Shown here: positions 13,105 to 63,648 of the stretch, in pieces
Layout: every line of letters starts with the position of its first letter
Numbering within the stretch: the stretch's first letter is position 1
NCBI RefSeq assembly: GCF_000252955.1
Contig: NC_014170.1
Location: forward strand, 62,001-126,000
From: Xenorhabdus nematophila ATCC 19061
Lineage (GTDB): Bacteria; Pseudomonadota; Gammaproteobacteria; Enterobacterales; Enterobacteriaceae
DNA length: 64,000 bases
Direction: 5' to 3'
Notes under the pieces: model-generated
Database searches by the model: none
The model's input: only the letters and a program-made list of their open reading frames with translations
What the model was told of the DNA's origin: nothing
Made by a program: the position numbers and the translations under genes

Positions 13105-13876
13105 GGGTTGGTTGTATTTTATGCAGCTAATCGGTAAAACATTTCTGCCGGTGACAATGCCTTATCTTCTGATTGTGAGTATTGTCCTTTACGTAGCATC
13201 GAAACGAGCTCTATCCCCGCTAAAATCGTTTGGGCCCGGCGAAACGATTTAAAGCCTGACATCGGCCGTATCCGACGTTTGATATTGTGGTGAGCTTGCT
13301 CAATGCGGTTATTCAGGTATTTATTTTGCCGGATTTCAATCCCCTGCTGAGGCTCACCTTCCGCATTGAGGAGGGTGAGCGCGGCGGTATTGGCCCCACT
13401 TTTATCGATAGTCACGACGGCGGGTCTGCCGTGCTGGCATATCGCTTTACGGAAAAAACGCCGGGCTGCCGTTGCATCGCGGCGAGCGGTCAGCAGGAAG
13501 TCAATCGTCTGACCGTCGGTATCGACCGCCCGGTAAAGGTATTTCCACTGACCTTTCACTTTGATGTACGTTTCATCCATTCGCCACCGGGAGCCAACGG
13601 GCTTTTTGCGAGGTCGGAAAGCCTTGCCGAGCAGGGGCACCAAACGTAACACCCAGCGATGTATCGTGGCATGGTCGACCCCAATGTCACGCTCTGCCAT
13701 CATCTCTTCGAGATTGCGCAGACTCACGGCATAAGCGAGGTACCCACGAACACATTGGGCAATGATATCGACAGGATAATGCAGACGTTTGAACGCTTTT
13801 CGGATAAGGGACATCACTCTGGACTCGCTCAAAAACAGGGAAGCTTACCTGATGACCGCTTAATGCGACAGAACCC
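13105..13876 (-). mobile_element. IS6-family insertion sequence
   Basis: The right end is clear: GGGTTCTGTCGCATTAA on the minus strand, 13860-13876. The same 17 bp recur at 36873 and in the inverted copy near 62352. The left end near 13105 (GGGTTGGTTGTATTTTA) is a weaker match. The element truncates the last gene of the peptide cluster. Confidence 0.75.
13119..13832 (-). CDS. IS6-family transposase
   Basis: A 237-residue DDE transposase. Landmarks are RWRMDETYIKVKGQWKYLYRAVD (first Asp), VVTIDKSGANTAAL (second Asp) and RQNKYLNNRIEQAHHNIKRR (Glu), then MSGFKSFRRAQTILAGIEL, as in IS26 relatives. It appears intact. Such elements move by forming cointegrates and often shuffle neighbouring plasmid segments. 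Confidence 0.92.
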   Translation of the reverse strand: MSESRVMSLIRKAFKRLHYPVDIIAQCVRGYLAYAVSLRNLEEMMAERDIGVDHATIHRWVLRLVPLLGKAFRPRKKPVGSRWRMDETYIKVKGQWKYLYRAVDTDGQTIDFLLTARRDATAARRFFRKAICQHGRPAVVTIDKSGANTAALTLLNAEGEPQQGIEIRQNKYLNNRIEQAHHNIKRRIRPMSGFKSFRRAQTILAGIELVSMLRKGQYSQSEDKALSPAEMFYRLAA

Positions 13877-14314
13877 CCAATAACCCCTATTATTAGATTT
13901 TTTCAGTTTTAGATCTCTGCGAGGAGGAAAAACAGGACAAGTATCTAATACACAATCTGTTTTACTGTTACTCAAATTATCGATTATATAACTGGCTGTA
14001 ATGCGTTCATGTTCTAATAACACACATTTTGAAGAAATAATATCCTCGCAATATCTGATTATTTCCTTAATAGTGTTAGGAGTATTAGCAGGAGTACCAA
14101 GGACATTATCAATTATTGGTGGTGTAGCCAAAAAACTTAATCGTTCTTGTAAATGTTTTGCTACTAATAATACACCAGAAAGTGATAATCCAACCTCAAT
14201 TTTAATATTGATTGAAGGTGACAATATTATTTCTTTAGATATAGATCCTATATGCTTGATAATCAGATCCAATGACCTACTATAAAAATTACGTAGATTA
14301 TAAATATTAATCAT
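13877..14314 (-). pseudogene. Last gene of the peptide cluster, truncated by IS6
   Basis: The start is taken at ATG 14314 (MINIYNLRNFYSRSLDLI), which overlaps the stop of the ClpX-like gene by 8 bp, so the genes are translationally coupled. About 145 native residues remain; from 13876 the frame reads IS6 DNA and ends at 13829. The protein is mostly helical, with several Cys (CEDIISSKCVLLEHE, DCVLDTCPVFPPRR). No family recognised. It could be an immunity protein or an accessory subunit. The amount lost is unknown. Confidence 0.5.
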
Positions 14315-15200
14315 CAGAGAACACCAAATCATGTTTACTGAATTCATGGGAACTATTCCCGATAATTATCATTTCCACAATTTTATCATAAACAATATTA
14401 TTGAATAGGTAGCTAACTGAACGGTAATGCCCTCCTAGTTTAAACGCTTCACGTGCAAGTAAAGATTTAAATGAATCATCGAAAGATATATTCATCCCTT
14501 TAGATTCTGCAAACCTAACTGCTTTCTCATAGAGTTCATCATCATTCGCCATCTTAAATAGCTCATTTTCATTTGGTTCTTTTAAGTGTATAAAAAAATC
14601 CACTCTATTCGCTAGTTCAGGAATAAATCCTGAATCGATCAAATTCTTTGGGCAAGACATTTTTTTTCCGTTAAAACTTCCTGTAAATACAAATATCATA
14701 TTATTAGTATTTAAATTCAGTATAGGATTTGGATTTATTCTGGAAGGATTCGGATTTGTAATACCAATCTCAACTCCATCCAGAGGTTTAAGTAATGACT
14801 GTTGAATACCAATTCCATTGACATCTTTTTCAACTGAAAAAGATGCACTTAACTTATCAAACTCATCTAAATGAATGATTCCTTTCGTAGCAACTTTACA
14901 ATCGCCTCCTGAAACATATAGTAATTTCTCAAATATACTATAGGGATCTTTTCCACTATAACCAACTTCAGATAATTCTTTGGAATCTATAGTTGACATT
15001 ACCCTAAAACTTACTTGCTTTAAGATATTCGCCAGACGAGTTTTTCCTGAACCTGATGCGCCAGAGATTAATAGACACTTAGGTTTATAACCGAATGTTT
15101 CAATATCTTCACTTAATAAAATAGAAAGTATACGATTTACTTTATCTATATTACTACCATTTTTCATTAGTTTTTTATTTATGCTAATTAAGCAACTCAT
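14307..15200 (-). CDS. ClpX-like AAA+ ATPase in the peptide cluster
   Basis: A 297-residue single AAA+ module. Walker A is GASGSGKT (47-54); SEVGYSGKDPYSIFEKLL (77-94) matches the ClpX segment carrying the GYVG pore loop, here GYSG. Walker B is IIHLDEFDK (108-116), then GIQQSLLKPLDG, sensor 1 at MIFVFTGSF and the arginine finger in FIPELANRVDF. The zinc-binding N domain of ClpX is absent, and the loop region where ClpX carries the IGF tripeptide for docking ClpP is shortened and lacks it. It should therefore unfold or remodel a partner without ClpP. Its ATG overlaps the MFS gene stop by 4 bp. It may act on the precursor peptide or provide immunity; this is inference. Confidence 0.7.
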   Translation of the reverse strand: MSCLISINKKLMKNGSNIDKVNRILSILLSEDIETFGYKPKCLLISGASGSGKTRLANILKQVSFRVMSTIDSKELSEVGYSGKDPYSIFEKLLYVSGGDCKVATKGIIHLDEFDKLSASFSVEKDVNGIGIQQSLLKPLDGVEIGITNPNPSRINPNPILNLNTNNMIFVFTGSFNGKKMSCPKNLIDSGFIPELANRVDFFIHLKEPNENELFKMANDDELYEKAVRFAESKGMNISFDDSFKSLLAREAFKLGGHYRSVSYLFNNIVYDKIVEMIIIGNSSHEFSKHDLVFSDD

Positions 15201-16393
15201 TTATCCTCCTTACTTATTTTATCTATATATATTTTAGCGCTTTTAGCTAGAAAAAATGGAGCAATTGAACCGATAGAAACAAATAAAAAAAATGGAATAA
15301 ATGAGCTAAATTTATTAACCAAAAACAACAGCACTACTGAATACATTGCTGTAATTCCTCTTACGATAGTATCACTGGCTAAAATCACTTCTCCCAAGTG
15401 TTCTTGTGGTGTAATGGCTTGTCCTAAAGTCATTCCTGCTATCCTAAAATAGAATTGTCCCCAACCTAATATTGCAGCCATTACATATAAAGAATATTTA
15501 TCAAATTTAAATATAGAGGCAATCACGATAGCCGCAATCGCAAATATCGTGGACGATTTAGAAAACATTGACACAATTTTAGGGTTGTTTTTTAAAACTT
15601 CATTTGAAATCAAGCCATTTACTACAAATCCCGCACTAATAAAAGAGAGGATAATATTTTGAATTACAGTAAATTGATCATTGCTTACTGATGATTTAGC
15701 AACCATAATAGGAATAAGCACAATCACACCTGTAAATATTAAGTTATTTAAAATTCTGTTTATTGTAAGCCCTTTTAGCGGAGCATTATTGGAAATAATT
15801 TTATACCCAAGCCAAACATCTGTACTACTGACTTCTTTATTTGTTCTCATCTTTCGCAATTCTGGACTAAGTATCCACGGAACACAAGTTACTAAATAAA
15901 AAATCATGAAAAAAACAAAAGACAAATTATGCCCAAAACTAACAATAATTGCAGCCGATAGCAACGGAGAAATAATTAGAGATGTTTGAACTGCTGTAGT
16001 ATACTTAGTGAAATTATGTGCTTTATCCTTATCCAACTTTATTAACTTGTTTAAAGATGAATTGTTATTCGGATTATCTAACCCTATAATTATAGAAAGC
16101 ATAAATATCGCAAATAAAACCACATATATATTGTTTGTGAATATCAATATAGGTATCAAAGAGGACGAAATTACAGGCCCAAAAAAACCGACTCTAAAGC
16201 CTTGATATTTACTTAAAACCCATCCCAAAAGAACTCCGGTGAAACTAATACCTAAAGAATTAGCTATGGTTATTGAGGATGAATAAATTCCCATACTATC
16301 AATTAATTCTAGTTTAGATATAGCTGTAGATATAATACCAATGCTAGAAAACTGAGTTAGACAACCAATAATTATTATCGCCAATATATTCAT
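15197..16393 (-). CDS. MFS transporter of the peptide cluster
   Basis: A 398-residue protein with about 12 hydrophobic spans, starting MNILAIIIIGCLTQFSSIGI, and lacking soluble domains. The layout, two halves of six spans with a basic cytoplasmic loop in the middle (SPELRKMRTNKEV), fits the major facilitator superfamily. It lies 14 bp after the PP-loop ATPase gene and overlaps the next gene, so it is in the same operon. The likely job is proton-driven export of the mature peptide or its product, as MFS pumps do in several microcin systems. Confidence 0.7.
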   Translation of the reverse strand: MNILAIIIIGCLTQFSSIGIISTAISKLELIDSMGIYSSSITIANSLGISFTGVLLGWVLSKYQGFRVGFFGPVISSSLIPILIFTNNIYVVLFAIFMLSIIIGLDNPNNNSSLNKLIKLDKDKAHNFTKYTTAVQTSLIISPLLSAAIIVSFGHNLSFVFFMIFYLVTCVPWILSPELRKMRTNKEVSSTDVWLGYKIISNNAPLKGLTINRILNNLIFTGVIVLIPIMVAKSSVSNDQFTVIQNIILSFISAGFVVNGLISNEVLKNNPKIVSMFSKSSTIFAIAAIVIASIFKFDKYSLYVMAAILGWGQFYFRIAGMTLGQAITPQEHLGEVILASDTIVRGITAMYSVVLLFLVNKFSSFIPFFLFVSIGSIAPFFLAKSAKIYIDKISKEDK

Positions 16394-16407
16394 AAATCAC
16401 ATATACG

Positions 16408-17607
16408 TTAGATATTTTTACCATAGTTGATATATTCACTCCACATTGACAATATATTCTCTGGTATATCAGGAATAGCACTAAATCCTAATTCATTATA
16501 ATATTCTAATTCAATCGGATTGCGATAACTTATCTTTTGCAATCCATCAATGAGCATGAATTCAATACCAGAAGATACCATAGAAACCGATTGAGCCAAA
16601 TAGTAACTTAATGCTCTCCAGTATAAATTACTAGGATATCTATCCATATAATTCTCTAATGAAAACTTAGGGTGACAGCCGTCTAAAATACGTTTAGGAC
16701 AACGATAGAGTGGATACCATATTTGGATTTCATCTATTTTCCTGATAGGAAATGATGAAAGGTTCTCTCCTTTTATCATAGAAAAAATTGCCTCGGCTAA
16801 AATATCTTCGAGATTTAATCCGGTAACAATAATATTTGTTTTATTTTGTCGAGCAACATGACTTAAAACTAAACGGATACCTAATGTTCCGATAACTTCC
16901 AAGTCAGAGTCAGGATAAAATTTCTCGAAATCTTCTGCCCAATGCCCTCCTTCTGTACCACGAATAATTTTGTTTACTTCTTCTTTTTCCATCACAAGAA
17001 GTTGCAAACCGACTTCCTGACAAACTTTATATGCTCGATTAATCCCTTTATCCCAATCAGCAATTCCCATAATCATAACAGGAGTGATATTTTCCTTCTT
17101 TATACCAGAATGAATAAGGCTAGTTAATAAAGTATTTGAATCACCACCGCCACTAATACCAACAATGATTTTTTCATCAGAATATGCTGACGCAAACTGT
17201 TCTTTGAATTTATCAACTTCAATTTTGACAAACTCATGACATTCTTTTTGACTAAACAATATATGTTTTTTATTTTCGCCATCATGGTTATCAAAAGTAT
17301 ACTCTGCGGTTGGTTCAGCATTTGGATCTTGGTAAAGGTCAATGTGTTTATTAATAACGGACGCATAATCGATATTACGATCTGCTCTAAATACCAGACT
17401 ATCTCCTTCCAGTTCATCCACTAACTCAGCTACTTTTTTATTTAAACACGGAATAACTTGATAATTTCCCATGTAATCTACTTTATAGGCAGAGACTGAG
17501 TTGAATGGAATTCCATTAACCATTAGGATATCTTTTAAAAATAAATCTTCTGATTGATAATTAAGAAGAAAATCACCATGCGGGGTAACAAGTTTTAATG
17601 ATTTCAT
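16408..17607 (-). CDS. PP-loop ATP-pyrophosphatase (peptide-modifying enzyme candidate)
   Basis: The start is taken at ATG 17607 (MKSLKLVTPHGDFLL); the frame extends to a GTG at 17619. Residue numbers are from that longer form. The ATP-pyrophosphatase signature SGGGDS is at 156-161 (VGISGGGDSNTLL). A GTLGIRLVLSH helix and the ligand-loop-like sequence VTGLNLEDILAEAIF follow. YPLYRCPKRILDGCHP carries two Cys. This fold, shared by asparagine synthetase, QueC and TtcA, adenylates a carbonyl. The N-terminal ~115 residues (beta-rich, VNGIPFNSVSAYKVDY) are not a glutaminase domain, so it is not a standard lasso cyclase. Next to a small peptide gene and an exporter it is the likely modifying enzyme. 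Confidence 0.65.
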   Translation of the reverse strand: MKSLKLVTPHGDFLLNYQSEDLFLKDILMVNGIPFNSVSAYKVDYMGNYQVIPCLNKKVAELVDELEGDSLVFRADRNIDYASVINKHIDLYQDPNAEPTAEYTFDNHDGENKKHILFSQKECHEFVKIEVDKFKEQFASAYSDEKIIVGISGGGDSNTLLTSLIHSGIKKENITPVMIMGIADWDKGINRAYKVCQEVGLQLLVMEKEEVNKIIRGTEGGHWAEDFEKFYPDSDLEVIGTLGIRLVLSHVARQNKTNIIVTGLNLEDILAEAIFSMIKGENLSSFPIRKIDEIQIWYPLYRCPKRILDGCHPKFSLENYMDRYPSNLYWRALSYYLAQSVSMVSSGIEFMLIDGLQKISYRNPIELEYYNELGFSAIPDIPENILSMWSEYINYGKNI

Positions 17608-17636
17608 TTCAAATTCCACTGTGCTGAATAAGAAAT

Positions 17637-17654
17637 GGGAGAGTTTCCTCCCCC
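17637..17654 (-). terminator. Weak stem-loop between peptide gene and modifying enzyme
   Basis: On the minus strand, a GGGAG/CTCCC-type stem with a short loop lies between the peptide stop and the ATPase start. A partial terminator here would give more peptide mRNA than enzyme mRNA, as seen in many bacteriocin operons. Confidence 0.4.
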
Positions 17655-17684
17655 ATAATTAATGAAAATTTTTCTCGTAGAAAT

Positions 17685-17855
17685 TCAACCACTCACAACT
17701 CGAGTTGAACCACCACAAATATCACCTTCACCATTCTTACCAATGTGTGCTTTAGCAATTGCAGTAAGTGATGCTAGGTTCGATTTTTCTTTTACATTTA
17801 CTTGAGAACCAAGAGATTGAGCTGATTTACGTGTAGACAGTTTATGTTTTTGCAT
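17685..17855 (-). CDS. 56-residue precursor-like peptide
   Basis: ATG 17855 follows AAAGGGTGT at good spacing. The peptide starts MQKHKLSTRKSAQSLGSQ, a basic leader-like part, continues NVKEKSNLASLTAIAKAHIG, and ends GKNGEGDICGGSTRVVSG. The last 18 residues are rich in Gly (7), with one Cys, Asp and Glu, and end in Gly, unlike the leader. Size, leader/core contrast and position as first gene before an adenylating-type enzyme and an exporter all suggest a ribosomally made, modified peptide. The core is not a clear lasso, thiazole or lanthipeptide type: one Cys, no Thr at the expected leader position. Confidence 0.6.
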   Translation of the reverse strand: MQKHKLSTRKSAQSLGSQVNVKEKSNLASLTAIAKAHIGKNGEGDICGGSTRVVSG

Positions 17856-17935
17856 TATAAACACCCTTTATTTAACAATTGGTGATGCTGCCAACTTACT
17901 GATTTAGTGTATGATGGTGTTTTTGAGGTGCTCCA

Positions 17936-18211
17936 GTGGCTTCTGTTTCTATCAGCTGTCCCTCCTGTTCAGCTACTGACGGGGTGGTGCGTAACGGCAA
18001 AAGCACCGCCGGACATCAGCGCTATCTCTGCTCTCACTGCCGTAAAACATGGCAACTGCAGTTCACTTACACCGCTTCTCAACCCGGTACGCACCAGAAA
18101 ATCATTGATATGGCCATGAATGGCGTTGGATGCCGGGCAACAGCCCGCATTATGGGCGTTGGCCTCAACACGATTTTACGTCACTTAAAAAACTCAGGCC
18201 GCAGTCGGTAA
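17936..18211 (+). CDS. insA: IS1 InsA
   Basis: A 91-residue protein with a GTG start ([20 protein letters not shown]), the IS1 zinc finger (CPSC...YLCSHC) and HTH. It acts as repressor and as the N-terminal part of the frameshifted InsAB' transposase. Practically identical to canonical IS1. Confidence 0.97.
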
Positions 18212-18633
18212 CCTCGCGCATACAGCCGGGCAGTGACGTCATCGTCTGCGCGGAAATGGACGAACAGTGGGGCTATGTCGGGGCTAAATCGCGCCAGCGC
18301 TGGCTGTTTTACGCGTATGACAGTCTCCGGAAGACGGTTGTTGCGCACGTATTCGGTGAACGCACTATGGCGACGCTGGGGCGTCTTATGAGCCTGCTGT
18401 CACCCTTTGACGTGGTGATATGGATGACGGATGGCTGGCCGCTGTATGAATCCCGCCTGAAGGGAAAGCTGCACGTAATCAGCAAGCGATATACGCAGCG
18501 AATTGAGCGGCATAACCTGAATCTGAGGCAGCACCTGGCACGGCTGGGACGGAAGTCGCTGTCGTTCTCAAAATCGGTGGAGCTGCATGACAAAGTCATC
18601 GGGCATTATCTGAACATAAAACACTATCAATAA
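18130..18633 (+). CDS. insB: IS1 InsB
   Basis: A 167-residue frame overlapping insA; the functional part begins near [12 protein letters not shown] with the catalytic residues ([30 protein letters not shown] at most in two blocks), and ends NIKHYQ. It is expressed mainly as an InsA-InsB fusion by -1 frameshifting. No disruption is visible, so this IS1 should be active. Confidence 0.95.
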
Positions 18634-18678
18634 GTTGGAGTCATTACCTTAACAATTAATTAAATATTTAACATCTTA

Positions 18679-19011: not shown

Positions 19012-20031
19012 ATGAAATTTACTCCTGTTGGCGTCGATATTGCAAAACATTTGATGCAAATTCATTTTGTTGATGAATACACCGGCGAACTCATTGACAA
19101 GCAACTAAAACGAAATGATTTTTTAACTTTCTTTAGTAACCGTGAGCCTTGCTTGATTGGTATGGAAGCGTGCGGTGGCGCTCACTATTGGGCACGGGAA
19201 CTGAGAAAGCTGGGACATGAAGTGCGTTTGCTTAAGGCTCGGTTTGTCAGGGCATTTCGGATGGGAAATAAAAACGATGTTCAGGATGCCCGGGCGATTT
19301 GGCTGGCCGTTCAGCAACCCGGTAAATCCGTTGCTATCAAAAATGAAGAACAGCAGGCCATTCTGTCATTACACCGGATGCGCTATCAACTCGTCAAATT
19401 CAGAACCGCGCAGATCAATTCGTTACATGGTTTACTGCTGGAATTTGGTGAAACCGTACATAAGGGCAGAACCTTGCTGGATAAAGCCATGCCTGAAGTC
19501 CTTGAGCGACTAAAGGAAAAACTGGCACCATTCCTACTCAATCTGCTTGAAAAGCAATACCACCGTTTGAACGAAATCGATGAACAAATTGAACAGGTGG
19601 AAAAACAACTGACGACGTGGGCAAAGCAGAATGCTGATTGTCAGCGAATTATGAAAATTCCCGGCGTCGGTGTCTTAATTGCGACAGCCGCCATCGCAAC
19701 GATGGGCGATCCCAGAGCGTTTCGGTCGGGCAGGGAATTTTCGGCCTATTTGGGCCTGGTGCCGAAACAAACGGGAACGGGAGGCCGGGTCAAATTACTG
19801 GGCATCAGTAAACGGGGAGATACCTATCTGAGAACCCTGTTTATTCACGGTGCAAGAGCGGCCACCTTACTGACAAAAACCCCGCTGCCGTGGGTGACGG
19901 AGCTGAAAAAACGCCGTCCGGTCTGTGTAGTGATAGTGGGGATGGCCAATAAGCTGGCTCGTACCGTTTGGGCATTGGTCGCCCATCAGCAGGAATATCA
20001 AAAAGATTACGTCAGTGTCAGACCTTACTGA
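19012..20031 (+). CDS. IS110-family (IS1111 type) DEDD recombinase, copy 1
   Basis: A 339-residue protein. The N-terminal DEDD RuvC-like domain shows VGVDIAKHLMQIHF, then LIGMEACGGAHYWAREL and KNDVQDARAIW. The C-terminal Transposase_20 domain has KIPGVGVLIATAAIATMGDP and GRVKLLGISKRGDTYLRTLF with the catalytic Ser region HGARAA. Long non-coding DNA follows the gene, where an IS1111-type bridge RNA would be expected. Intact. Confidence 0.95.
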   Translation: MKFTPVGVDIAKHLMQIHFVDEYTGELIDKQLKRNDFLTFFSNREPCLIGMEACGGAHYWARELRKLGHEVRLLKARFVRAFRMGNKNDVQDARAIWLAVQQPGKSVAIKNEEQQAILSLHRMRYQLVKFRTAQINSLHGLLLEFGETVHKGRTLLDKAMPEVLERLKEKLAPFLLNLLEKQYHRLNEIDEQIEQVEKQLTTWAKQNADCQRIMKIPGVGVLIATAAIATMGDPRAFRSGREFSAYLGLVPKQTGTGGRVKLLGISKRGDTYLRTLFIHGARAATLLTKTPLPWVTELKKRRPVCVVIVGMANKLARTVWALVAHQQEYQKDYVSVRPY

Positions 20032-20763: not shown

Positions 20764-21783
20764 TCAGTAAGGTCTGACACTGACGTAATCTTTTTGATAT
20801 TCCTGCTGATGGGCGACCAATGCCCAAACGGTACGAGCCAGCTTATTGGCCATCCCCACTATCACTACACAGACCGGACGGCGTTTTTTCAGCTCCGTCA
20901 CCCACGGCAGCGGGGTTTTTGTCAGTAAGGTGGCCGCTCTTGCACCGTGAATAAACAGGGTTCTCAGATAGGTATCTCCCCGTTTACTGATGCCCAGTAA
21001 TTTGACCCGGCCTCCCGTTCCCGTTTGTTTCGGCACCAGGCCCAAATAGGCCGAAAATTCCCTGCCCGACCGAAACGCTCTGGGATCGCCCATCGTTGCG
21101 ATGGCGGCTGTCGCAATTAAGACACCGACGCCGGGAATTTTCATAATTCGCTGACAATCAGCATTCTGCTTTGCCCACGTCGTCAGTTGTTTTTCCACCT
21201 GTTCAATTTGTTCATCGATTTCGTTCAAACGGTGGTATTGCTTTTCAAGCAGATTGAGTAGGAATGGTGCCAGTTTTTCCTTTAGTCGCTCAAGGACTTC
21301 AGGCATGGCTTTATCCAGCAAGGTTCTGCCCTTATGTACGGTTTCACCAAATTCCAGCAGTAAACCATGTAACGAATTGATCTGCGCGGTTCTGAATTTG
21401 ACGAGTTGATAGCGCATCCGGTGTAATGACAGAATGGCCTGCTGTTCTTCATTTTTGATAGCAACGGATTTACCGGGTTGCTGAACGGCCAGCCAAATCG
21501 CCCGGGCATCCTGAACATCGTTTTTATTTCCCATCCGAAATGCCCTGACAAACCGAGCCTTAAGCAAACGCACTTCATGTCCCAGCTTTCTCAGTTCCCG
21601 TGCCCAATAGTGAGCGCCACCGCACGCTTCCATACCAATCAAGCAAGGCTCACGGTTACTAAAGAAAGTTAAAAAATCATTTCGTTTTAGTTGCTTGTCA
21701 ATGAGTTCGCCGGTGTATTCATCAACAAAATGAATTTGCATCAAATGTTTTGCAATATCGACGCCAACAGGAGTAAATTTCAT
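20764..21783 (-). CDS. IS110-family (IS1111 type) DEDD recombinase, copy 2
   Basis: Identical in protein sequence to the gene at 19012-20031, on the opposite strand and convergent with it. Both copies appear intact, so either could provide recombinase. The pair forms a head-to-head palindrome that would be unstable in cells with strong hairpin-cleaving activity (SbcCD). Confidence 0.95.
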   Translation of the reverse strand: MKFTPVGVDIAKHLMQIHFVDEYTGELIDKQLKRNDFLTFFSNREPCLIGMEACGGAHYWARELRKLGHEVRLLKARFVRAFRMGNKNDVQDARAIWLAVQQPGKSVAIKNEEQQAILSLHRMRYQLVKFRTAQINSLHGLLLEFGETVHKGRTLLDKAMPEVLERLKEKLAPFLLNLLEKQYHRLNEIDEQIEQVEKQLTTWAKQNADCQRIMKIPGVGVLIATAAIATMGDPRAFRSGREFSAYLGLVPKQTGTGGRVKLLGISKRGDTYLRTLFIHGARAATLLTKTPLPWVTELKKRRPVCVVIVGMANKLARTVWALVAHQQEYQKDYVSVRPY

Positions 21784-35576: not shown

Positions 35577-35800
35577 AAATGCGATTCTAATCTAAAAAAC
35601 ATTGAGGCATCGTTACTCGTCATTTTCGAGAGTTCTTCCGCAGGACCCCTACTTGATTGGATACCATCCTTTTTTAAGCATGGCTTCCGAATGGTATGAA
35701 ACTTTTAACGAGTAAAAATAACCTTAAATTTTGAGTAGATTATAAAATGTATGGCATTAATTTTATCTTAAGCATAATTTTATTTAAATGGAGACTTATC
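35577..35800. other. Leader region of the lectin-like gene
   Basis: No gene. AT-rich towards the end (AAGCATAATTTTATTTAAAT) with GGAG before the start codon at 35801. The longer frame from 35747 lacks a ribosome site. Confidence 0.45.
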
Positions 35801-36718
35801 ATGAATATTATTCAAAAAAACTCTTCGAATATAATTTGGGGAGATGAAACAGATTCGGGTCAATTGGGACATTTTTATCCTTTTCTGTTTCCCTTTACGA
35901 TTGGGGATCATACGTTTTTTTATGGCCAAAACATAGAAAGATCTCGTTATGGTAGATTTATTCGGGAACTTCACCCCGGTGGCATAGTGAGTTGGACAAC
36001 AGATGAAACAGATATAAATTATGGGCCTTCTCTTTCTATTAGGCCGGTTCTTTATACCGTTGGAAAGCGTGTATTTATACGTGCTCAAATGATTGACCAT
36101 CATAAGCTATGGTACATTCAAGAAGTGTTACCAGGTGGAACATTCGGCTCCATAATAAATCAAGGCTATTATAATATTGAATATTCTGCACAGTTTCCCT
36201 ATTTAATTGATGGGAAGACATTTATATTTAATCAGACTTTTGATGAAAAAAAAGGTAACTTTTATATAGTTCAAGAAATGATGCCCGACGGTAATCATGG
36301 TGAAATAACGGACGAAGGAACATGGAACTCGTTTTACCCTTTCCAGTTTGCTTATACAGTTGGAAAGCGCACTTTCTATTATGGACAAACCAGAGATAAT
36401 AACTATTGGTTCATTCAGGAACTTTTGCCTGACGGTAGAATAGGGAGCACCACTGAAAGCGGAAATTGGCACAGTTTTTATGAGGTGCTATTTCCCTTCA
36501 TTTTTAAAGGGCGCACTTTCTATTATGGACAAACCAGAGATAATAACTATTGGTTTATTCAGGAACTTCTGGCTGACGGCAAGCTGGCGAGCAGCTATCA
36601 ATCAGGATATTTTGAGCATTTTTATGAGGTTCAATTCCCCTTCACTTTTGGAGAGCATACTTACTTCTTTCGGCACAGCAATGATAAAAGGTGGTTTATT
36701 CAAGAACTACTATTATAG
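35801..36718 (+). CDS. Six-repeat beta-propeller/lectin-like protein (copy A)
   Basis: The start is ATG 35801 (MNIIQKNSSNIIWGDE), with GGAG 8 bp upstream. The 305 residues consist of six repeats of ~48 residues. Each ends in a W/F-Y/F-I-Q-E-x-L-P-D/G-G motif (FIRELHPGG, WYIQEVLPGG, FYIVQEMMPDG, WFIQELLPDG, WFIQELLADG, WFIQELLL) and contains a YTVGKRTFYYGQ-type strand. Repeats 4 and 5 share a long identical stretch also at DNA level (36368 and 36512), so the array grew by duplication. No signal peptide. Aromatic-rich repeats like these are typical of propeller lectins, including those of Photorhabdus, but the family was not identified. Target and role unknown. Confidence 0.6.
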   Translation: MNIIQKNSSNIIWGDETDSGQLGHFYPFLFPFTIGDHTFFYGQNIERSRYGRFIRELHPGGIVSWTTDETDINYGPSLSIRPVLYTVGKRVFIRAQMIDHHKLWYIQEVLPGGTFGSIINQGYYNIEYSAQFPYLIDGKTFIFNQTFDEKKGNFYIVQEMMPDGNHGEITDEGTWNSFYPFQFAYTVGKRTFYYGQTRDNNYWFIQELLPDGRIGSTTESGNWHSFYEVLFPFIFKGRTFYYGQTRDNNYWFIQELLADGKLASSYQSGYFEHFYEVQFPFTFGEHTYFFRHSNDKRWFIQELLL

Positions 36719-45319: not shown

Positions 45320-47104
45320 ATGTGGTCAGACAAGGAATCATCAGAAGATTACCTAAATTTTGGAGAAGTATCCCAATTAGCCGTCGATGTGCTCACTACC
45401 GAAGGTATGTTACCAGTATCGATAGGCATTTTTGGTAATTGGGGTGCTGGCAAATCCTCACTCTTGAAACTGATAGAGCAAAAACTTGAGAAAGATGATA
45501 AGGATTGGATTGTTATCAACTTTGACTCCTGGCTCTATCAAGGTTATGACGACGCTCGAGCTGCGCTTCTTGAAGTTATAGCTACATCATTGACGAAAGC
45601 TGCGGATGGGAATGCCTCCATCGTCTCAAAAGCGAAGAAACTCCTTAGTCGGGTAGATGGATTTAGGGCAATGGGGTTCTTGGCTGAAGGAGCGGCTTTA
45701 TTTGCCGGAGTTCCTACTGGGGGCTTTCTTGCTAGAGGTTTGGGAGCATTAAGAAATGTTTCAGATGGAATACAAAGTCAGGAAGAGTACGAAGATTTAG
45801 GCAATCTGGCTAAAGAAAGTAAGGAGAAGGTTGGTAATTTGCTCAAGCCAGAGGTGAAAAAAAGCCCTCCTCAACAGATTGAAGCTTTCCGTAAGGAATA
45901 TGGGGAAATTTTAGAAGAGCTTGGTAAGCCACTTATAGTGATAATAGATAATCTTGATCGCTGCCTCCCTGCTAACGCTATTCATACGCTTGAAGCTATC
46001 AGGTTATTCCTTTTCTTAACTAATACTGCCTTTATCATTGCAGCAGATGAGGACATGATTCGTTCTTCTGTGTCTGATTACTTCAAGGGGGCATCACAGC
46101 GCCATCAGATAGATTATCTCGATAAGCTCATCCAGGTTCCTATTCGGGTGCCAAAAGCTGGAGTGCGTGAGATTCGTTCATATCTGTTCATGCTTTATGC
46201 TATTGAACATGGCTTAAAAGGCGAAAAACTTACCAATCTCCGTGATGGTTTAGAAAGGGCATTACAGCATTCCTGGAAAGATGAACCAATCTCACGCCAG
46301 GACGTCCTGAAAATGACTGGTGAATCCGAGGATAGTAATCTAGCTTTGGCATTTGCACGTGCGGACCGTATTGCTCCTGTATTAGCGAACTCTCCAATAA
46401 TCCATGGCAATCCCAGAATCGTTAAGCGTTTGCTGAATGTTGTGAAAATGCGTTCTCAAATTGCTAAGCGACGAGCAATGCCTTTGGATGAAGCAATTAT
46501 CACTAAGTTAGTAATCTTTGAACGATGTGTCGGAGTAGATGGTACTGCTGATTTATATCACCTCGTGGATATTGAACAAGGTATGCCCCAGCTACTAAAA
46601 CAGCTTGAGGATACTAACGGTCAAGTACCTTCGGAAGCGCCAAAGACATGGACTGATAATCCAACAACTAAAGCTTTCATTGCTCAATGGGCTCAGCTTG
46701 AACCGCGCCTTGGTGGAATTGATTTGAGAGCCGCTATATACCTATCCAGAGAAACTATGCCAATAGGTGCATATGTGGTCGGTTTATCACCATCTGGACG
46801 GGAAGTACTGAATGCACTTATTGAACTGAAAAATACCAGTTCTCCTACAGCAGAAGACCTTTTGAAAACGCTTCCTCGTGAAGAGCAAGTACCTGTAATG
46901 GAAGGTTTAATTAGCCAATTAAGGCAAGTGTCAGATTGGGCTCGTAAACCTAAGGGTTTTTCCGGTGCATGCCTCTTAGCCCGCCATTCGGCAGATGCGG
47001 CCAGTATATTAATTCGTTTTTTGCAGGAGTTGCAACTGGGGATGAAACGGCCAGCGTGGATGACTGCAGCACTAAAAGATGAGCAATGGAATAAGGACGC
47101 TTAA
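45320..47104 (+). CDS. qatA: QatA, KAP-family P-loop NTPase of the Qat anti-phage system
   Basis: A 594-residue protein with the KAP NTPase layout: Walker A GNWGAGKS at 39-46, NFDSWLYQGYDDARAALL, a Gly-rich hydrophobic insert around 115-145, Walker B LIVIIDNLDRC (205-215) and FIIAADEDMIRSSVSDYFKG. In QatABCD, described as a four-gene anti-phage system, this ATPase acts with the QueC-like QatC and TatD-like QatD. ATG follows AAGGGGT. The next gene starts at the stop (TAATG). The mechanism is not known in detail. Confidence 0.9.
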   Translation: MWSDKESSEDYLNFGEVSQLAVDVLTTEGMLPVSIGIFGNWGAGKSSLLKLIEQKLEKDDKDWIVINFDSWLYQGYDDARAALLEVIATSLTKAADGNASIVSKAKKLLSRVDGFRAMGFLAEGAALFAGVPTGGFLARGLGALRNVSDGIQSQEEYEDLGNLAKESKEKVGNLLKPEVKKSPPQQIEAFRKEYGEILEELGKPLIVIIDNLDRCLPANAIHTLEAIRLFLFLTNTAFIIAADEDMIRSSVSDYFKGASQRHQIDYLDKLIQVPIRVPKAGVREIRSYLFMLYAIEHGLKGEKLTNLRDGLERALQHSWKDEPISRQDVLKMTGESEDSNLALAFARADRIAPVLANSPIIHGNPRIVKRLLNVVKMRSQIAKRRAMPLDEAIITKLVIFERCVGVDGTADLYHLVDIEQGMPQLLKQLEDTNGQVPSEAPKTWTDNPTTKAFIAQWAQLEPRLGGIDLRAAIYLSRETMPIGAYVVGLSPSGREVLNALIELKNTSSPTAEDLLKTLPREEQVPVMEGLISQLRQVSDWARKPKGFSGACLLARHSADAASILIRFLQELQLGMKRPAWMTAALKDEQWNKDA

Positions 47105-47856
47105 TGGGAACTTCACAATCAAGTACAGGTCCAGGTGGTGGTTCTCCACTAGTTCCACCTTGGGCTGATGATCAGCCACAGCAACCCTTGCCCCCGCCAC
47201 AAGAAAGAAGGTTTGCGCCGTTCCGGGAATCTTTGGGAAATGCGGTTTTAAACGGTAATAGAGCAGACTTCAGAAAAGCTATAGGGCATTACGCGCGAAA
47301 AGCCTCTGGAGGGAGCGGTAGTGCAGCTCGACGATTAGGGAGTGTCACACAGGCAGGGGGCGGATTGTTTGGGGCATTGGCGGGAATGCCTGCGGCTCCA
47401 GGAGAACCAAGCATTGATTTGGGCAGTTTGGCTGGCCTTCCATGCGAAATGGCAATATCAGCTATTGCTCAAGCTTTAACATCACAGGATGGTGATTCAG
47501 AAAAGATTTGTGCAGCCATGAACCATGCCTTAGTGGAGGCTCTCGATGGTGTAGCAATCTTCGATCCCCAAAAAATAACTGATGGTGTGATCGTTGACAC
47601 AATGATTTGTTATCTAGCTGAAAGCATTTTTCTGCAAATGGTCATGGATTCTAACAAGGCATGGAATAAAGCAGATACTCCTTCAAAAGCCATCCATGCA
47701 GAAACTGAACTTCGAGAATTGATCAAAGTTGTTGTTGATAAGCATATGGCTCCAAAACTTGTCGGTAACATCAGAACTTTTTCGAAAAATCAAATGATTA
47801 ATATTGAGCGTCAGGTAATCATTGAGGCTTGGCAAGAATGGGAGGCTTACCAATGA
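47104..47856 (+). CDS. qatB: QatB, partner protein of the Qat system
   Basis: A 250-residue protein beginning with a Pro/Gly-rich disordered stretch (GTSQSSTGPGGGSPLVPPWA), followed by a helical body (NAVLNGNRADFRKAIGHYAR; GSLAGLPCEMAISAIAQALT). This matches the layout of QatB proteins, which have no known enzymatic domain. Its start overlaps qatA and its stop overlaps qatC, so the complex is probably made in fixed ratio. Confidence 0.85.
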   Translation: MGTSQSSTGPGGGSPLVPPWADDQPQQPLPPPQERRFAPFRESLGNAVLNGNRADFRKAIGHYARKASGGSGSAARRLGSVTQAGGGLFGALAGMPAAPGEPSIDLGSLAGLPCEMAISAIAQALTSQDGDSEKICAAMNHALVEALDGVAIFDPQKITDGVIVDTMICYLAESIFLQMVMDSNKAWNKADTPSKAIHAETELRELIKVVVDKHMAPKLVGNIRTFSKNQMINIERQVIIEAWQEWEAYQ

Positions 47857-49157
47857 CACAATTAGTTTTCCATCATGATCATCGTCTCTTACCGTCAGCA
47901 GGTGATAGCTTGTTGCCCGTACAGCTCTATGGATTAAGCGGGCAGGGTCGGGGTGATATATCTATTATTGGGAATCCTGCGATTGATCGAATTAAGCGCT
48001 TGGGAGTCAAAATTCCAGCTCAGGTCATGGATTTTTTGAGCATCGCACTAGCGGTTACAGCCGCCGATACCTTCGTTCAGCGTGAAAGCTCTGAGGATGG
48101 TTGGACTCGCCAATTCTCGTTACGACTTCCCCTTCATGAGCCATCTCGATGGATTGCTCTTAAGAAGGAGCTTGAAAGCGCTTTGCATTTCCTTAGTGGA
48201 GACATCTGGGATTTTGAATTTTGTAACGGTGGTTATGTACCACCAGAACCGTATAGCCAGCATTCAAAATTTCATCTGATTAAACTCAAAGATCTTGACT
48301 GCGTCAGCTTATTTTCGGGCGGATTGGATTCGGCTATTGGCGCAATAGATCTTCTTGCAGCAGGGCGTGCCCCGCTTTTGGTTAGTCATGCTTATAAAGG
48401 AGACAAGTCACGCCAAGATCAGATTGCTGAAAAATTAAATGGTCGATACTCACGGTTTGAAATTAATGCTGATCCGCATATATATCAAGGTGATACTGAG
48501 ATTACGATGCGAACGCGTAGCCTCAATTTTCTTGCCTTTGCGGCTGTTGGCGCTTGTGCTGTACAAGAAGTATCTCAACAAGAAAAGGTCGATCTGTTTG
48601 TGCCTGAAAATGGGTTTATCTCGCTAAATGCGCCACTAACCCCACGAAGGATAGGTACGCTGAGCACACGAACTACACATCCACATTTTATTACGAGCGT
48701 ACAAAAGCTCTTTGATGCGGCCGGTATTCCTTGCCAAATAATCAATCCATATCAGTTCAAAACAAAGGGGCAAATGGCCTCCCAATGCTTGAATAAGCAA
48801 CTATTATCTGAAGTCGTGGAAAGTACAGTATCTTGCAGTCATTGGAAACGCCGGAATCAGCAGTGCGGAGTGTGTGTACCGTGCATCATTCGACGGGCAT
48901 CGCTTCATGCTGGGGGGATTGATAAAGACGCTGATTATACTTTTCAGTCCCTAGCTAAAGTAATAAATGAAATTGATCGCAGGGATGATCTCATGGCTCT
49001 TAGGATTGCGATCGCACAGAAATCGACTTTGAAAATAGGAACATGGATCGCCAAAAGCGGTCCTTTGCCTACGGCAACATTCAATAATTTTAAGCAGGTG
49101 TTTATAGACGGCCTGGATGAGGTCGAAAGCTACTTACTAAGTGAGAGCATAGTGTGA
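47853..49157 (+). CDS. qatC: QatC, QueC-like PP-loop enzyme of the Qat system
   Basis: The start is ATG 47853, overlapping the qatB stop (ATGA); upstream in-frame codons to 47829 lie inside qatB. The PP-loop SGGLDS is at 155-160. The C-terminal Cys cluster (CSHWKRRNQQCGVCVPC) matches the zinc site of QueC (7-cyano-7-deazaguanine synthase). The N-terminal ~145 residues are an extra domain typical of QatC. It suggests a nucleobase- or protein-modifying step in defence. Confidence 0.9.
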   Translation: MTQLVFHHDHRLLPSAGDSLLPVQLYGLSGQGRGDISIIGNPAIDRIKRLGVKIPAQVMDFLSIALAVTAADTFVQRESSEDGWTRQFSLRLPLHEPSRWIALKKELESALHFLSGDIWDFEFCNGGYVPPEPYSQHSKFHLIKLKDLDCVSLFSGGLDSAIGAIDLLAAGRAPLLVSHAYKGDKSRQDQIAEKLNGRYSRFEINADPHIYQGDTEITMRTRSLNFLAFAAVGACAVQEVSQQEKVDLFVPENGFISLNAPLTPRRIGTLSTRTTHPHFITSVQKLFDAAGIPCQIINPYQFKTKGQMASQCLNKQLLSEVVESTVSCSHWKRRNQQCGVCVPCIIRRASLHAGGIDKDADYTFQSLAKVINEIDRRDDLMALRIAIAQKSTLKIGTWIAKSGPLPTATFNNFKQVFIDGLDEVESYLLSESIV

Positions 49158-49879
49158 GCATCGATATGCACTGTCATCTCGACTTATATTCTCAGCCAGA
49201 ACAAGTGGCTGAGGAATGCAAGCGTCGAGGGACTTATATACTGTCGGTTACAACGACACCTAGAGCATGGCATGGGACCTCTTCACTAGCCAAAGGAAGC
49301 CAACGAATCCGAACAGCTCTTGGGCTTCATCCCCAAATAGCACATCAAAGATCGCATGAGTTAGAGCTATTTGATTCACTGCTTTCGGAAACTAGGTACA
49401 TTGGCGAAATAGGGCTTGATGGTGGTAAGGGATTTAAAGAGCATTGGGACATCCAGTTGAAGGTATTCCGACACATACTCAATAACGTAAATCGTGCTGG
49501 AGGCAAGATTATGACTATCCATAGCCGAGGAAGTGCGTCAGTTGTCCTCGATGAGATCGAAAATATTGATGGGGTAGCAGTATTGCATTGGTTCACAGGG
49601 ACACCTAAGCAGCTTGAAAGGGCAATCGATTTAGGGTGTTGGTTTTCAGTGGGGCCAGCAATGCTCGATACAATAAAGGGAAAGTCCTTAGCTTTGAAAA
49701 TTCCCAAATCACGCATTCTTACAGAAACAGATGGGCCATTTGGTAAGTTTCGTAATGACCCACTAATGCCATGGGACAGTGAGATTGCAGAGAAGCAGCT
49801 AACCACATTATGGGACATGAGCCAGATGGAGGTTAAAGCTCAGCTTTTTGAAAATTTTAGAGAGTTATGTAAATTGTAA
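49154..49879 (+). CDS. qatD: QatD, TatD-like metal-dependent hydrolase of the Qat system
   Basis: A 241-residue protein with a GTG start overlapping the qatC stop. It has the TatD metal ligands: HCHLD (His6, His8), EIGLDGG (Glu), TIHSRGS (His), LHWFTG (His) and TETDGPFG (Asp). TatD proteins are DNases; in Qat this one is needed for defence. 79 bp later the transposon ends, so qatABCD is the distal cargo of Tn F. Confidence 0.9.
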   Translation: MSIDMHCHLDLYSQPEQVAEECKRRGTYILSVTTTPRAWHGTSSLAKGSQRIRTALGLHPQIAHQRSHELELFDSLLSETRYIGEIGLDGGKGFKEHWDIQLKVFRHILNNVNRAGGKIMTIHSRGSASVVLDEIENIDGVAVLHWFTGTPKQLERAIDLGCWFSVGPAMLDTIKGKSLALKIPKSRILTETDGPFGKFRNDPLMPWDSEIAEKQLTTLWDMSQMEVKAQLFENFRELCKL

Positions 49880-62506: not shown

Positions 62507-63424
62507 CTATAATAGTAGTTCTTGAATAAACCACCTTTTATCATTGCTGTGCCGAAAGAAGTAAGTATGCTCTCCAAAAGTGAAGGGGAATTGAACCTCA
62601 TAAAAATGCTCAAAATATCCTGATTGATAGCTGCTCGCCAGCTTGCCGTCAGCCAGAAGTTCCTGAATAAACCAATAGTTATTATCTCTGGTTTGTCCAT
62701 AATAGAAAGTGCGCCCTTTAAAAATGAAGGGAAATAGCACCTCATAAAAACTGTGCCAATTTCCGCTTTCAGTGGTGCTCCCTATTCTACCGTCAGGCAA
62801 AAGTTCCTGAATGAACCAATAGTTATTATCTCTGGTTTGTCCATAATAGAAAGTGCGCTTTCCAACTGTATAAGCAAACTGGAAAGGGTAAAACGAGTTC
62901 CATGTTCCTTCGTCCGTTATTTCACCATGATTACCGTCGGGCATCATTTCTTGAACTATATAAAAGTTACCTTTTTTTTCATCAAAAGTCTGATTAAATA
63001 TAAATGTCTTCCCATCAATTAAATAGGGAAACTGTGCAGAATATTCAATATTATAATAGCCTTGATTTATTATGGAGCCGAATGTTCCACCTGGTAACAC
63101 TTCTTGAATGTACCATAGCTTATGATGGTCAATCATTTGAGCACGTATAAATACACGCTTTCCAACGGTATAAAGAACCGGCCTAATAGAAAGAGAAGGC
63201 CCATAATTTATATCTGTTTCATCTGTTGTCCAACTCACTATGCCACCGGGGTGAAGTTCCCGAATAAATCTACCATAACGAGATCTTTCTATGTTTTGGC
63301 CATAAAAAAACGTATGATCCCCAATCGTAAAGGGAAACAGAAAAGGATAAAAATGTCCCAATTGACCCGAATCTGTTTCATCTCCCCAAATTATATTCGA
63401 AGAGTTTTTTTGAATAATATTCAT
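62507..63424 (-). CDS. Six-repeat beta-propeller/lectin-like protein (copy B)
   Basis: Protein identical to the copy at 35801-36718, with the same ribosome site. The exact match shows that the inverted duplication is recent or kept equal by gene conversion. The upstream and downstream DNA is also duplicated, so both copies should be expressed alike. See copy A for the repeat structure. 62201-62506 holds the same IS6/IS21 ends as arm A and no gene. Confidence 0.6.
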   Translation of the reverse strand: MNIIQKNSSNIIWGDETDSGQLGHFYPFLFPFTIGDHTFFYGQNIERSRYGRFIRELHPGGIVSWTTDETDINYGPSLSIRPVLYTVGKRVFIRAQMIDHHKLWYIQEVLPGGTFGSIINQGYYNIEYSAQFPYLIDGKTFIFNQTFDEKKGNFYIVQEMMPDGNHGEITDEGTWNSFYPFQFAYTVGKRTFYYGQTRDNNYWFIQELLPDGRIGSTTESGNWHSFYEVLFPFIFKGRTFYYGQTRDNNYWFIQELLADGKLASSYQSGYFEHFYEVQFPFTFGEHTYFFRHSNDKRWFIQELLL

Positions 63425-63648
63425 GATAAGTCTCCATTTAAATAAAATTATGCTTAAGATAAAATTAATGCCATACATTTTATAATCTACTCAAAATTTA
63501 AGGTTATTTTTACTCGTTAAAAGTTTCATACCATTCGGAAGCCATGCTTAAAAAAGGATGGTATCCAATCAAGTAGGGGTCCTGCGGAAGAACTCTCGAA
63601 AATGACGAGTAACGATGCCTCAATGTTTTTTAGATTAGAATCGCATTT

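Follow-up and report, generated by a model that had tools for sequence, protein, structure and literature searches.

The stretch analysed here, hereafter the window, comprises 64,000 nucleotides of a plasmid of Xenorhabdus nematophila ATCC 19061 (NC_014170.1, positions 62,001 to 126,000). Its minus strand carries a run of five open reading frames (ORFs) encoding, in order, a small peptide, a PP-loop ATP-pyrophosphatase, a major facilitator superfamily (MFS) transporter, a ClpX-like AAA+ protein and a fifth product. Positions 13830-17880 matched plasmid II of strain AN6/1 with 100.0% identity and 99% of the query covered; this sister plasmid (L001) is typed as conjugative, IncC and MOBH. The comparisons described below show that the small peptide gene and the gene for the predicted PP-loop enzyme travel together, and related pairs in scattered bacteria of several phyla point to an unrecognised route to modified peptides. 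The features of the locus, in window coordinates, are as follows.

17685..17855, minus strand: candidate precursor peptide gene, 56 amino acids, C-terminus GDICGGSTRVVSG (ORF; six peptides 68-75% identical)
17635..17656, minus strand: hairpin with a 9-bp stem and a T-rich tail, possibly a partial terminator (folding against shuffles; count of terminator-like matches)
16408..17619, minus strand: PP-loop ATP-pyrophosphatase with an extra N-terminal domain of ~110 amino acids (Pfam, homologues, profile matches)
15197..16393, minus strand: MFS transporter (PF07690, 63.6 bits; homologue beside the enzyme in 5 of 43 loci)
14307..15200, minus strand: ClpX-like AAA+ protein without zinc finger and without IGF loop (Pfam, NCBIfam, alignment with the genome's own ClpX)
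13877..14314, minus strand: fifth ORF, no family assigned, cut by an IS6-family element (ORF list; RefSeq on the sister plasmid)
13119..13832, minus strand: IS6-family transposase, a boundary element outside the system (ORF; IS6 annotated at the corresponding place on the sister plasmid)
17881..18648, plus strand: IS1, a boundary element (terminal repeats; flanking 9-bp repeats; absent in AN6/1)

An initial annotation of this DNA had proposed a five-gene minus-strand operon headed by a 56-codon peptide. The peptide ORF starting at 17855 was confirmed, and RefSeq places a 171-nt coding sequence (CDS) at the corresponding position of the sister plasmid. The operon agrees with the ORFs, their strand and the overlaps of 4 bp (MFS and AAA+ genes) and 8 bp (AAA+ gene and fifth ORF, with the RefSeq start), except that the fifth ORF, which starts at 14314 (RefSeq) or 14347 (longest ORF), is truncated by the IS6-family element. 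The PP-loop ORF opens with GTG at 17619, while the 1200-nt RefSeq CDS corresponds to an ATG at 17607 (399 amino acids). Gaps of 14 nt separate the PP-loop and MFS genes and of 77 nt the peptide from the PP-loop ATG. The hairpin in the latter gap, read from 17656 to 17635, lies in an 81-nt stretch with a folding z of -2.53, and 5 of 200 shuffles folded equally well. Four of the six terminator-like matches, against 1.3 expected, were forms of this hairpin, and its position between peptide and enzyme could allow the peptide to be produced in excess. Promoter-like matches near the operon were at chance level (3 found, 2.9 expected).

The association of peptide and enzyme was examined across genomes. 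A search with the PP-loop protein gave 132 homologues at E ≤ 1e-3, of which the best 120 were listed; the window protein and 29 homologues were aligned and the alignment was used to fetch 43 loci (L numbers) from genome_contigs. Small ORFs ahead of the enzyme gene were catalogued in all 43, and many of their C-termini were alike. Three profile models (a 24-residue C-terminal model and one each for precursor groups B and C, described below) were trained on 31 peptides from 30 loci and the window, then applied to the complete set of 14,532 stop-to-stop ORFs with 25 or more codons that the 43 loci contain. In 39 of these loci a single ORF, and no more, matched at E ≤ 1e-3. The next-best match in any locus had an E of 0.7, this being the sole further ORF at E ≤ 1, and none of the letter-shuffled ORFs reached E ≤ 1e-3, their lowest E being 0.45. 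The peptide lay directly upstream on the same strand in 32 of the 39. Nine of the matched loci were outside the training set: L011 is a near copy of L008 (96% identical), and the other eight (L014, L015, L018, L019, L026, L032, L039, L045) matched at E 1.6e-28 to 3e-12. A short gene linked to the gene of a putative modifying enzyme, the arrangement by which ribosomally synthesised and post-translationally modified peptides (RiPPs) are judged, is seen in the 39 loci and, by eye, in the later-found L084 and L085. Among relatives of the window's own peptide, P0136, P0138 and P0135 lie on contigs of the same length as those of the PP-loop homologues P0002, P0004 and P0003 (77739, 1074445 and 4656 nt, respectively), which suggests but does not prove that these too adjoin PP-loop genes. 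A small gene conserved beside the PP-loop gene, on which the initial annotation had staked its proposal, was the outcome, rather than homologues lacking such a neighbour.

The C-termini of 44 peptides (41 loci, the window and two close relatives) were tabulated. The tail usually consists of E followed by exactly 12 residues, x-[ILV]-x-x-x-S-x(6), with E at -13 in 35 of the 44, I, V or L at -11 in 40 and S at -7 in 38. Cys occupies -10 in 20 peptides and -9 in 12, and Thr occupies -10 in 5. L084 has the E at -13 and its Ser shifted to -6, and the final residue is of ten or more kinds across the set. The last 12 residues of the putative precursor are, as aligned, of fixed length with a weak fixed pattern. 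Three groups were distinguished: group A (window, Vibrio, Flavobacteriaceae and L003), whose weakly alike members read ...CGxS...; group B, reading FxLK ... LExxR ... AS..G.E followed by x[IL][CT]GAS...; and group C, with E followed by xVLCxSALTAxx and its kin. The remaining peptides are ungrouped. FxLK, LExxR and ASxxGxE ahead of the 12-residue end are common to 12 aligned group B peptides and vary in the more distant L014 and L019. No Pfam or NCBIfam family was found for the window peptide. The variable core expected by the initial annotation did not hold up, the core being conserved among relatives and not hypervariable.

These tails bear on which group would be modified. The Cys at -10 or -9, the Thr at -10 and the Ser at -7 could be sites for an azoline or similar ring made by a YcaO-independent cyclodehydratase, and PP-loop enzymes do activate amide-like carbonyls. 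Three cores speak against such side-chain chemistry: L032, L040 and L044 have neither Cys nor Ser at -7, and L032 and L044 contain no Cys, Ser or Thr before -4. Moreover, a local ring would not need a C-terminal region of fixed length. We regard a side-chain ring as unlikely, and prefer the main chain because no one side-chain nucleophile is common to all cores.

The window enzyme contains the motif GISGGGDSN. It matched PF02540 at 23.4 bits (cut-off 21), covering only positions 11-88 of the 242 in that profile, and PF01171 at 24.1 bits, under the cut-off of 27. It did not reach the NCBIfam cut-offs for NAD synthase (TIGR00552, 24.2 bits against 63.65) or TilS (TIGR02432, 27.1 against 93.6). 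Two of five relatives matched the TilS model, at 22.0 and 26.1 bits, and neither the window enzyme nor these five passed any NCBIfam cut-off (TilS, NcsA/TtuA and NadE equivalogs). The closest solved sequences by profile were a [4Fe-4S]-dependent tRNA thiolase (E 4e-10), TtuA (2e-6) and NAD synthetase (2e-6). The NcsA/TtuA [4Fe-4S] thiolases hold their cluster with three cysteines. The CxxC of the solved thiolase 6scy, which we take to be its iron-sulfur ligands, aligned to non-Cys columns of the enzyme family, and an iron-sulfur thiolase identity was ruled out since the cluster cysteines are missing at the aligned columns. The weak matches to TilS, TtuA, NadE and LarE would fit an enzyme that modifies tRNA or a metabolite, with the small gene being a regulator or toxin-antitoxin partner. 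We consider this improbable, as the scores lie far under the NCBIfam cut-offs, the thiolase cysteines are absent and the distribution is sparse with a tightly linked peptide.

Conservation within the enzyme family was assessed on 50 of 56 rows, leaving out L033, L028, L004, L025, L034 and L038; the tree left out only the first four of these. Forty-one positions were conserved in at least 85% of the 50 rows, including the SGGGDSN loop, and C200 and C315 were near-invariant (48 rows each). The precursor groups tracked enzyme clades: the three groups required 2 changes on the tree, compared with a mean of 16.7 after shuffling, with 15 of the 52 tree rows belonging to no group. The N-terminal domain of ~110 residues gave no family when 22 members were tested with Pfam. 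By eye it had appeared to be a ThiS/MoaD-like sulfur carrier; this was not confirmed. Two ubiquitin-like Pfam families had a single match apiece among the 22 domains (E 0.025 and 0.12), and comparison with 30 closely related MoaD-type proteins gave an hhalign probability of 0.3%, a weak test given the narrow profile. PHROGs assigned no function beyond a weak 'NAD synthetase' (E 0.053) and, for the AAA+ protein, names of the replication type. In L029 (Bordetella hinzii) the PP-loop homologue reads as two pieces in different frames and, being split, may be inactive.

Several observations weigh against a peptide-modifying pair. The peptide was not directly upstream in 7 of the 39 loci: it lay farther upstream in L014, L019, L039 and L045, downstream in L015 and on the opposite strand in L018 and L026. 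Four of the 43 loci had no model match, two at contig edges (L025, L033) and two unexplained (L004, L037). Nine divergent peptides (window, L003, L005, L024, L027, L028, L029, L030, L043) were each withheld from training in turn, and the C-terminal model failed to retrieve them (E at best 0.43); the window's own peptide scored 4.6e2, and L027 and L028 were not reported. The assignment of divergent peptides therefore rests on position and on S(-7) with [ILVM](-11), the pattern of groups B and C, picked after all cores were inspected. Of 11 loci outside these two groups, the window among them, 8 have the pattern upstream of the enzyme (0.77 expected, P ~6e-8), against a background frequency of 2.0% among the other small ORFs (84 of 4,118). 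L024, L028 and L030 miss it, and the related Flavobacteriaceae loci L005, L006 and L007 were counted separately among the 11. On the enzyme side, branch support for group A is weak (82/59), tree row P0005 was counted in group A with no precursor shown beside it, and the L015 ORF, also among the 50 column-count rows, is probably mis-framed (branch of 10). C200 and C315 could be structural. Neither the window proteins (Pfam) nor the 22 N-terminal domains matched a RiPP recognition element (RRE) of the PqqD type; to our knowledge, not every RiPP needs an RRE. Judged from gene neighbourhoods, peptide and putative PP-loop enzyme form a real unit, mobile and sparsely distributed, present in five or more bacterial lineages.

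The other three genes were not constant companions. MFS homologues, identified by BLAST clustering, lay beside the enzyme in the window and in L003, L004, L027, L029 and L030; of the three submitted to Pfam, L003 passed the cut-off, L029 fell under it and L027 gave no match. The ClpX-like protein scored 48.6 bits for PF07724 and 104.8 for NF003745 (cut-off 359), with motifs that we take to be the Walker motifs and a GYxG pore loop. It lacks the zinc finger and IGF loop, both of which are present in the genome's own ClpX. Outside the window only L003 showed this trimmed type, and in L018, the source of the third protein in the clustered set, both elements are kept. The fifth ORF had no homologue at E ≤ 1e-3 in the protein search and no Pfam or NCBIfam family above cut-off, its best hint being a weak M42 peptidase match (E 0.089). 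The five-gene set was dismissed as a unit, given that neither the MFS nor the AAA+ gene is obligatory and that the fifth ORF is a truncated orphan. What stands of the system proposed initially is the peptide/PP-loop pair, to which the transporter, ClpX-like and fifth genes appear optional. An anti-phage role was also considered; PADLOC, applied to four of the five proteins with the peptide excluded, matched the AAA+ protein only (DolB, E 5e-5; VakA, E 6e-3), and nothing convincing emerged.

Other lineages surround the pair with other genes. In the Flavobacteriaceae loci L005, L006 and L007 a further protein follows the enzyme, which in L005 is a nucleotidyltransferase. Pfam identified an M28 peptidase in the group B loci L010, L014 and L022, and luciferase-like, amidase, aminotransferase and enolase proteins in L017. 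BLAST clustering extended these to 16 loci for M28, 6 for the luciferase-like protein, 8 for the amidase, 6 for the aminotransferase and 7 for the enolase, one of the last (L032) belonging to group C. Group C neighbours include HisRS-like (L032, L037, L040) and PheRS-like proteins (L031, L036, L041), TauD with P450 (L038) and a carbamoyltransferase (L039, L045). These enzymes raise the possibility that the peptide is a carrier or scaffold whose C-terminus is activated (as an amide, amino acid or thiocarboxylate) and that the appended group is the product. The fixed 12-residue reach to the C-terminus with a variable last residue, and a core that is conserved, would suit a carrier, as would the synthetase-like, transferase and tailoring genes of some loci. 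Against it, Pfam and NCBIfam found no such additional enzyme in the window cluster, and we hold a carrier to be possible but doubtful.

Six group B loci (L008, L009, L011, L012, L016, L017) place the pair in fairly constant surroundings, with luciferase-like, amidase and M28 proteins in most and enolase and aminotransferase in some. An NDK-like protein was noted there by eye, with no Pfam match. They may reflect an undescribed natural-product pathway, in actinomycetes as well as in myxobacteria and proteobacteria.

The window cluster has been reshaped by insertion sequences. IS1, with matching ends at 17881-18648, is flanked on both sides by the 9-bp repeat TTAACAATT and stops 25 nt ahead of the peptide start codon. 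It cuts the peptide off from its native upstream region, which makes expression in the window strain doubtful. In the AN6/1 plasmid IS1 is absent and both 9-bp copies stand in tandem (around 20000 of L001), as after loss of IS1 or as an older tandem repeat. At the other side, the frame of the fifth ORF runs into the end of the IS6-family element at ~13876-13880, a junction common to the window and the AN6/1 plasmid; the ends of this element were not pinned down (best pairing 12 of 18 matching). Beside the cluster, two facing ORFs with identical transposase translations occupy 19012-20031 (+) and 20764-21783 (-), of the IS110 family in the sister-plasmid annotation. A 323-residue ORF with internally repeated motifs (FYYGQTRDNNYWFIQELL) is present twice in opposite orientation, at 35747-36718 (+) and 62507-63478 (-). 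The sister plasmid has an annotated insecticidal delta-endotoxin-like protein at 30563-32530 of L001, ~6.5 kb off the cluster. A complete QatABCD anti-phage set was identified by PADLOC at 45320-49879 (+) of the window (QatA 1080, QatB 415, QatC 460 and QatD 324 bits), and its QatC also weakly matched a QueC model.

The cluster itself is rare. Among the best 5000 plasmid records, one (AN6/1) covered 80% of it; by protein, four plasmid records were found, those of Pantoea, Paenarthrobacter and Geobacillus each being less than 36% identical. No homologue was present in 29 same-genus genomes, and the one positive among 99 genomes sampled was the window's own. Protein databases hold entries from Xenorhabdus bovienii (97% identical) and X. 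doucetiae (80%). Wider samples, known positives included, gave 1 of 369 (its own), 2 of 397 and 3 of 299 genomes. In viral_contigs, 87 pattern matches included no relatives; in ecoli_genomes no record covered 80% of the cluster, and 40 places listed of 9266 records covered ~2% of it, at the IS1 end.

RiPP classes are defined by the first modifying enzyme. The initial annotation knew of no named class with such a set of genes, and our literature search likewise gave no description of a peptide/PP-loop system, which is weak evidence of absence because subscription papers and bioRxiv were mostly outside its coverage. The main text of a paper surveying the gene clusters of Xenorhabdus and Photorhabdus contains none of the terms 'PP-loop', 'pyrophosphatase' and 'precursor peptide', while its supplements may list single clusters; 97% of its RiPP clusters are given as unidentified (PMC9177418). 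A lasso-peptide genome paper describes an Asn-synthetase-like enzyme for one lasso cluster (PMC9774768), and tRNA sulfur modification is the subject of a review (PMC6225789).

The locus is probably a RiPP-like system, and we propose that its PP-loop enzyme adenylates a carbonyl of the main chain within the last 12 residues of the peptide. That the peptide would be adenylated is suggested by the enzyme family: TilS and the tRNA thiolases adenylate an amide carbonyl on a base, and NadE a carboxylate. The enzyme would recognise the peptide and, driven by MgATP, adenylate a carbonyl of the C-terminal 12 residues, with an amide carbonyl as first choice and the C-terminal carboxylate as second. AMP would then be displaced by a sulfur, nitrogen or other nucleophile. 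If the enzyme does act on the peptide, we would give the internal main-chain amide about half of the likelihood, the C-terminal carboxylate about a third and a side-chain ring the rest. The product of the window cluster may be exported by the MFS protein. The weakest step, a guess, is that the ClpX-like protein, without its ClpP-docking loop, pulls the product off the enzyme or gives self-protection. Other lineages would bring other tailoring enzymes. A bolder and rather speculative extension is a RiPP class of wide distribution, with members from Xenorhabdus to Streptomyces and Patescibacteria. Its defining enzyme, TilS/NcsA-like, would swap a main-chain carbonyl oxygen (thioamide or amidine) by means of the two conserved cysteines and without YcaO, the 12-residue tail being substrate or product. 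If the proposal is correct, there is a PP-loop ATP-pyrophosphatase beyond the lasso cyclases that takes a ribosomal peptide as substrate; this would represent a new activation chemistry and show the recruitment of a tRNA-modification enzyme family to peptides, and the enzyme family together with the 12-residue tail would offer a search handle for unexplored clusters in several phyla.

The system resembles known ones in part. The ClpX-like protein shares the Walker motifs and pore loop with ClpX but differs in its score and in lacking the zinc finger and ClpP-docking loop. Like YcaO RiPPs (azolines, thioamides, amidines), the pair is proposed to use ATP-dependent activation of a backbone carbonyl, yet no YcaO domain is present; in agreement with the initial annotation, the five window proteins matched no YcaO, lasso-cyclase, radical-SAM, ATP-grasp or lanthipeptide-synthetase family at E ≤ 1 in Pfam and NCBIfam. 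As in lasso peptide clusters, a small precursor gene stands beside an ATP-pyrophosphatase, there of the Asn-synthetase-like McjC type, whereas the same searches found no Asn-synthetase domain, transglutaminase-like lasso protease or RRE in the window proteins. With the N-type PP-loop enzymes TilS, NcsA/TtuA and NadE the window enzyme shares the SGGxDS loop, the ATP-pyrophosphatase region and its best sequence matches. It differs from them in scoring far under their NCBIfam cut-offs, in lacking a CxxC at the thiolase place and in having the ~110-residue N-terminal domain, a conserved GLNLED further on and the linkage to a peptide gene.

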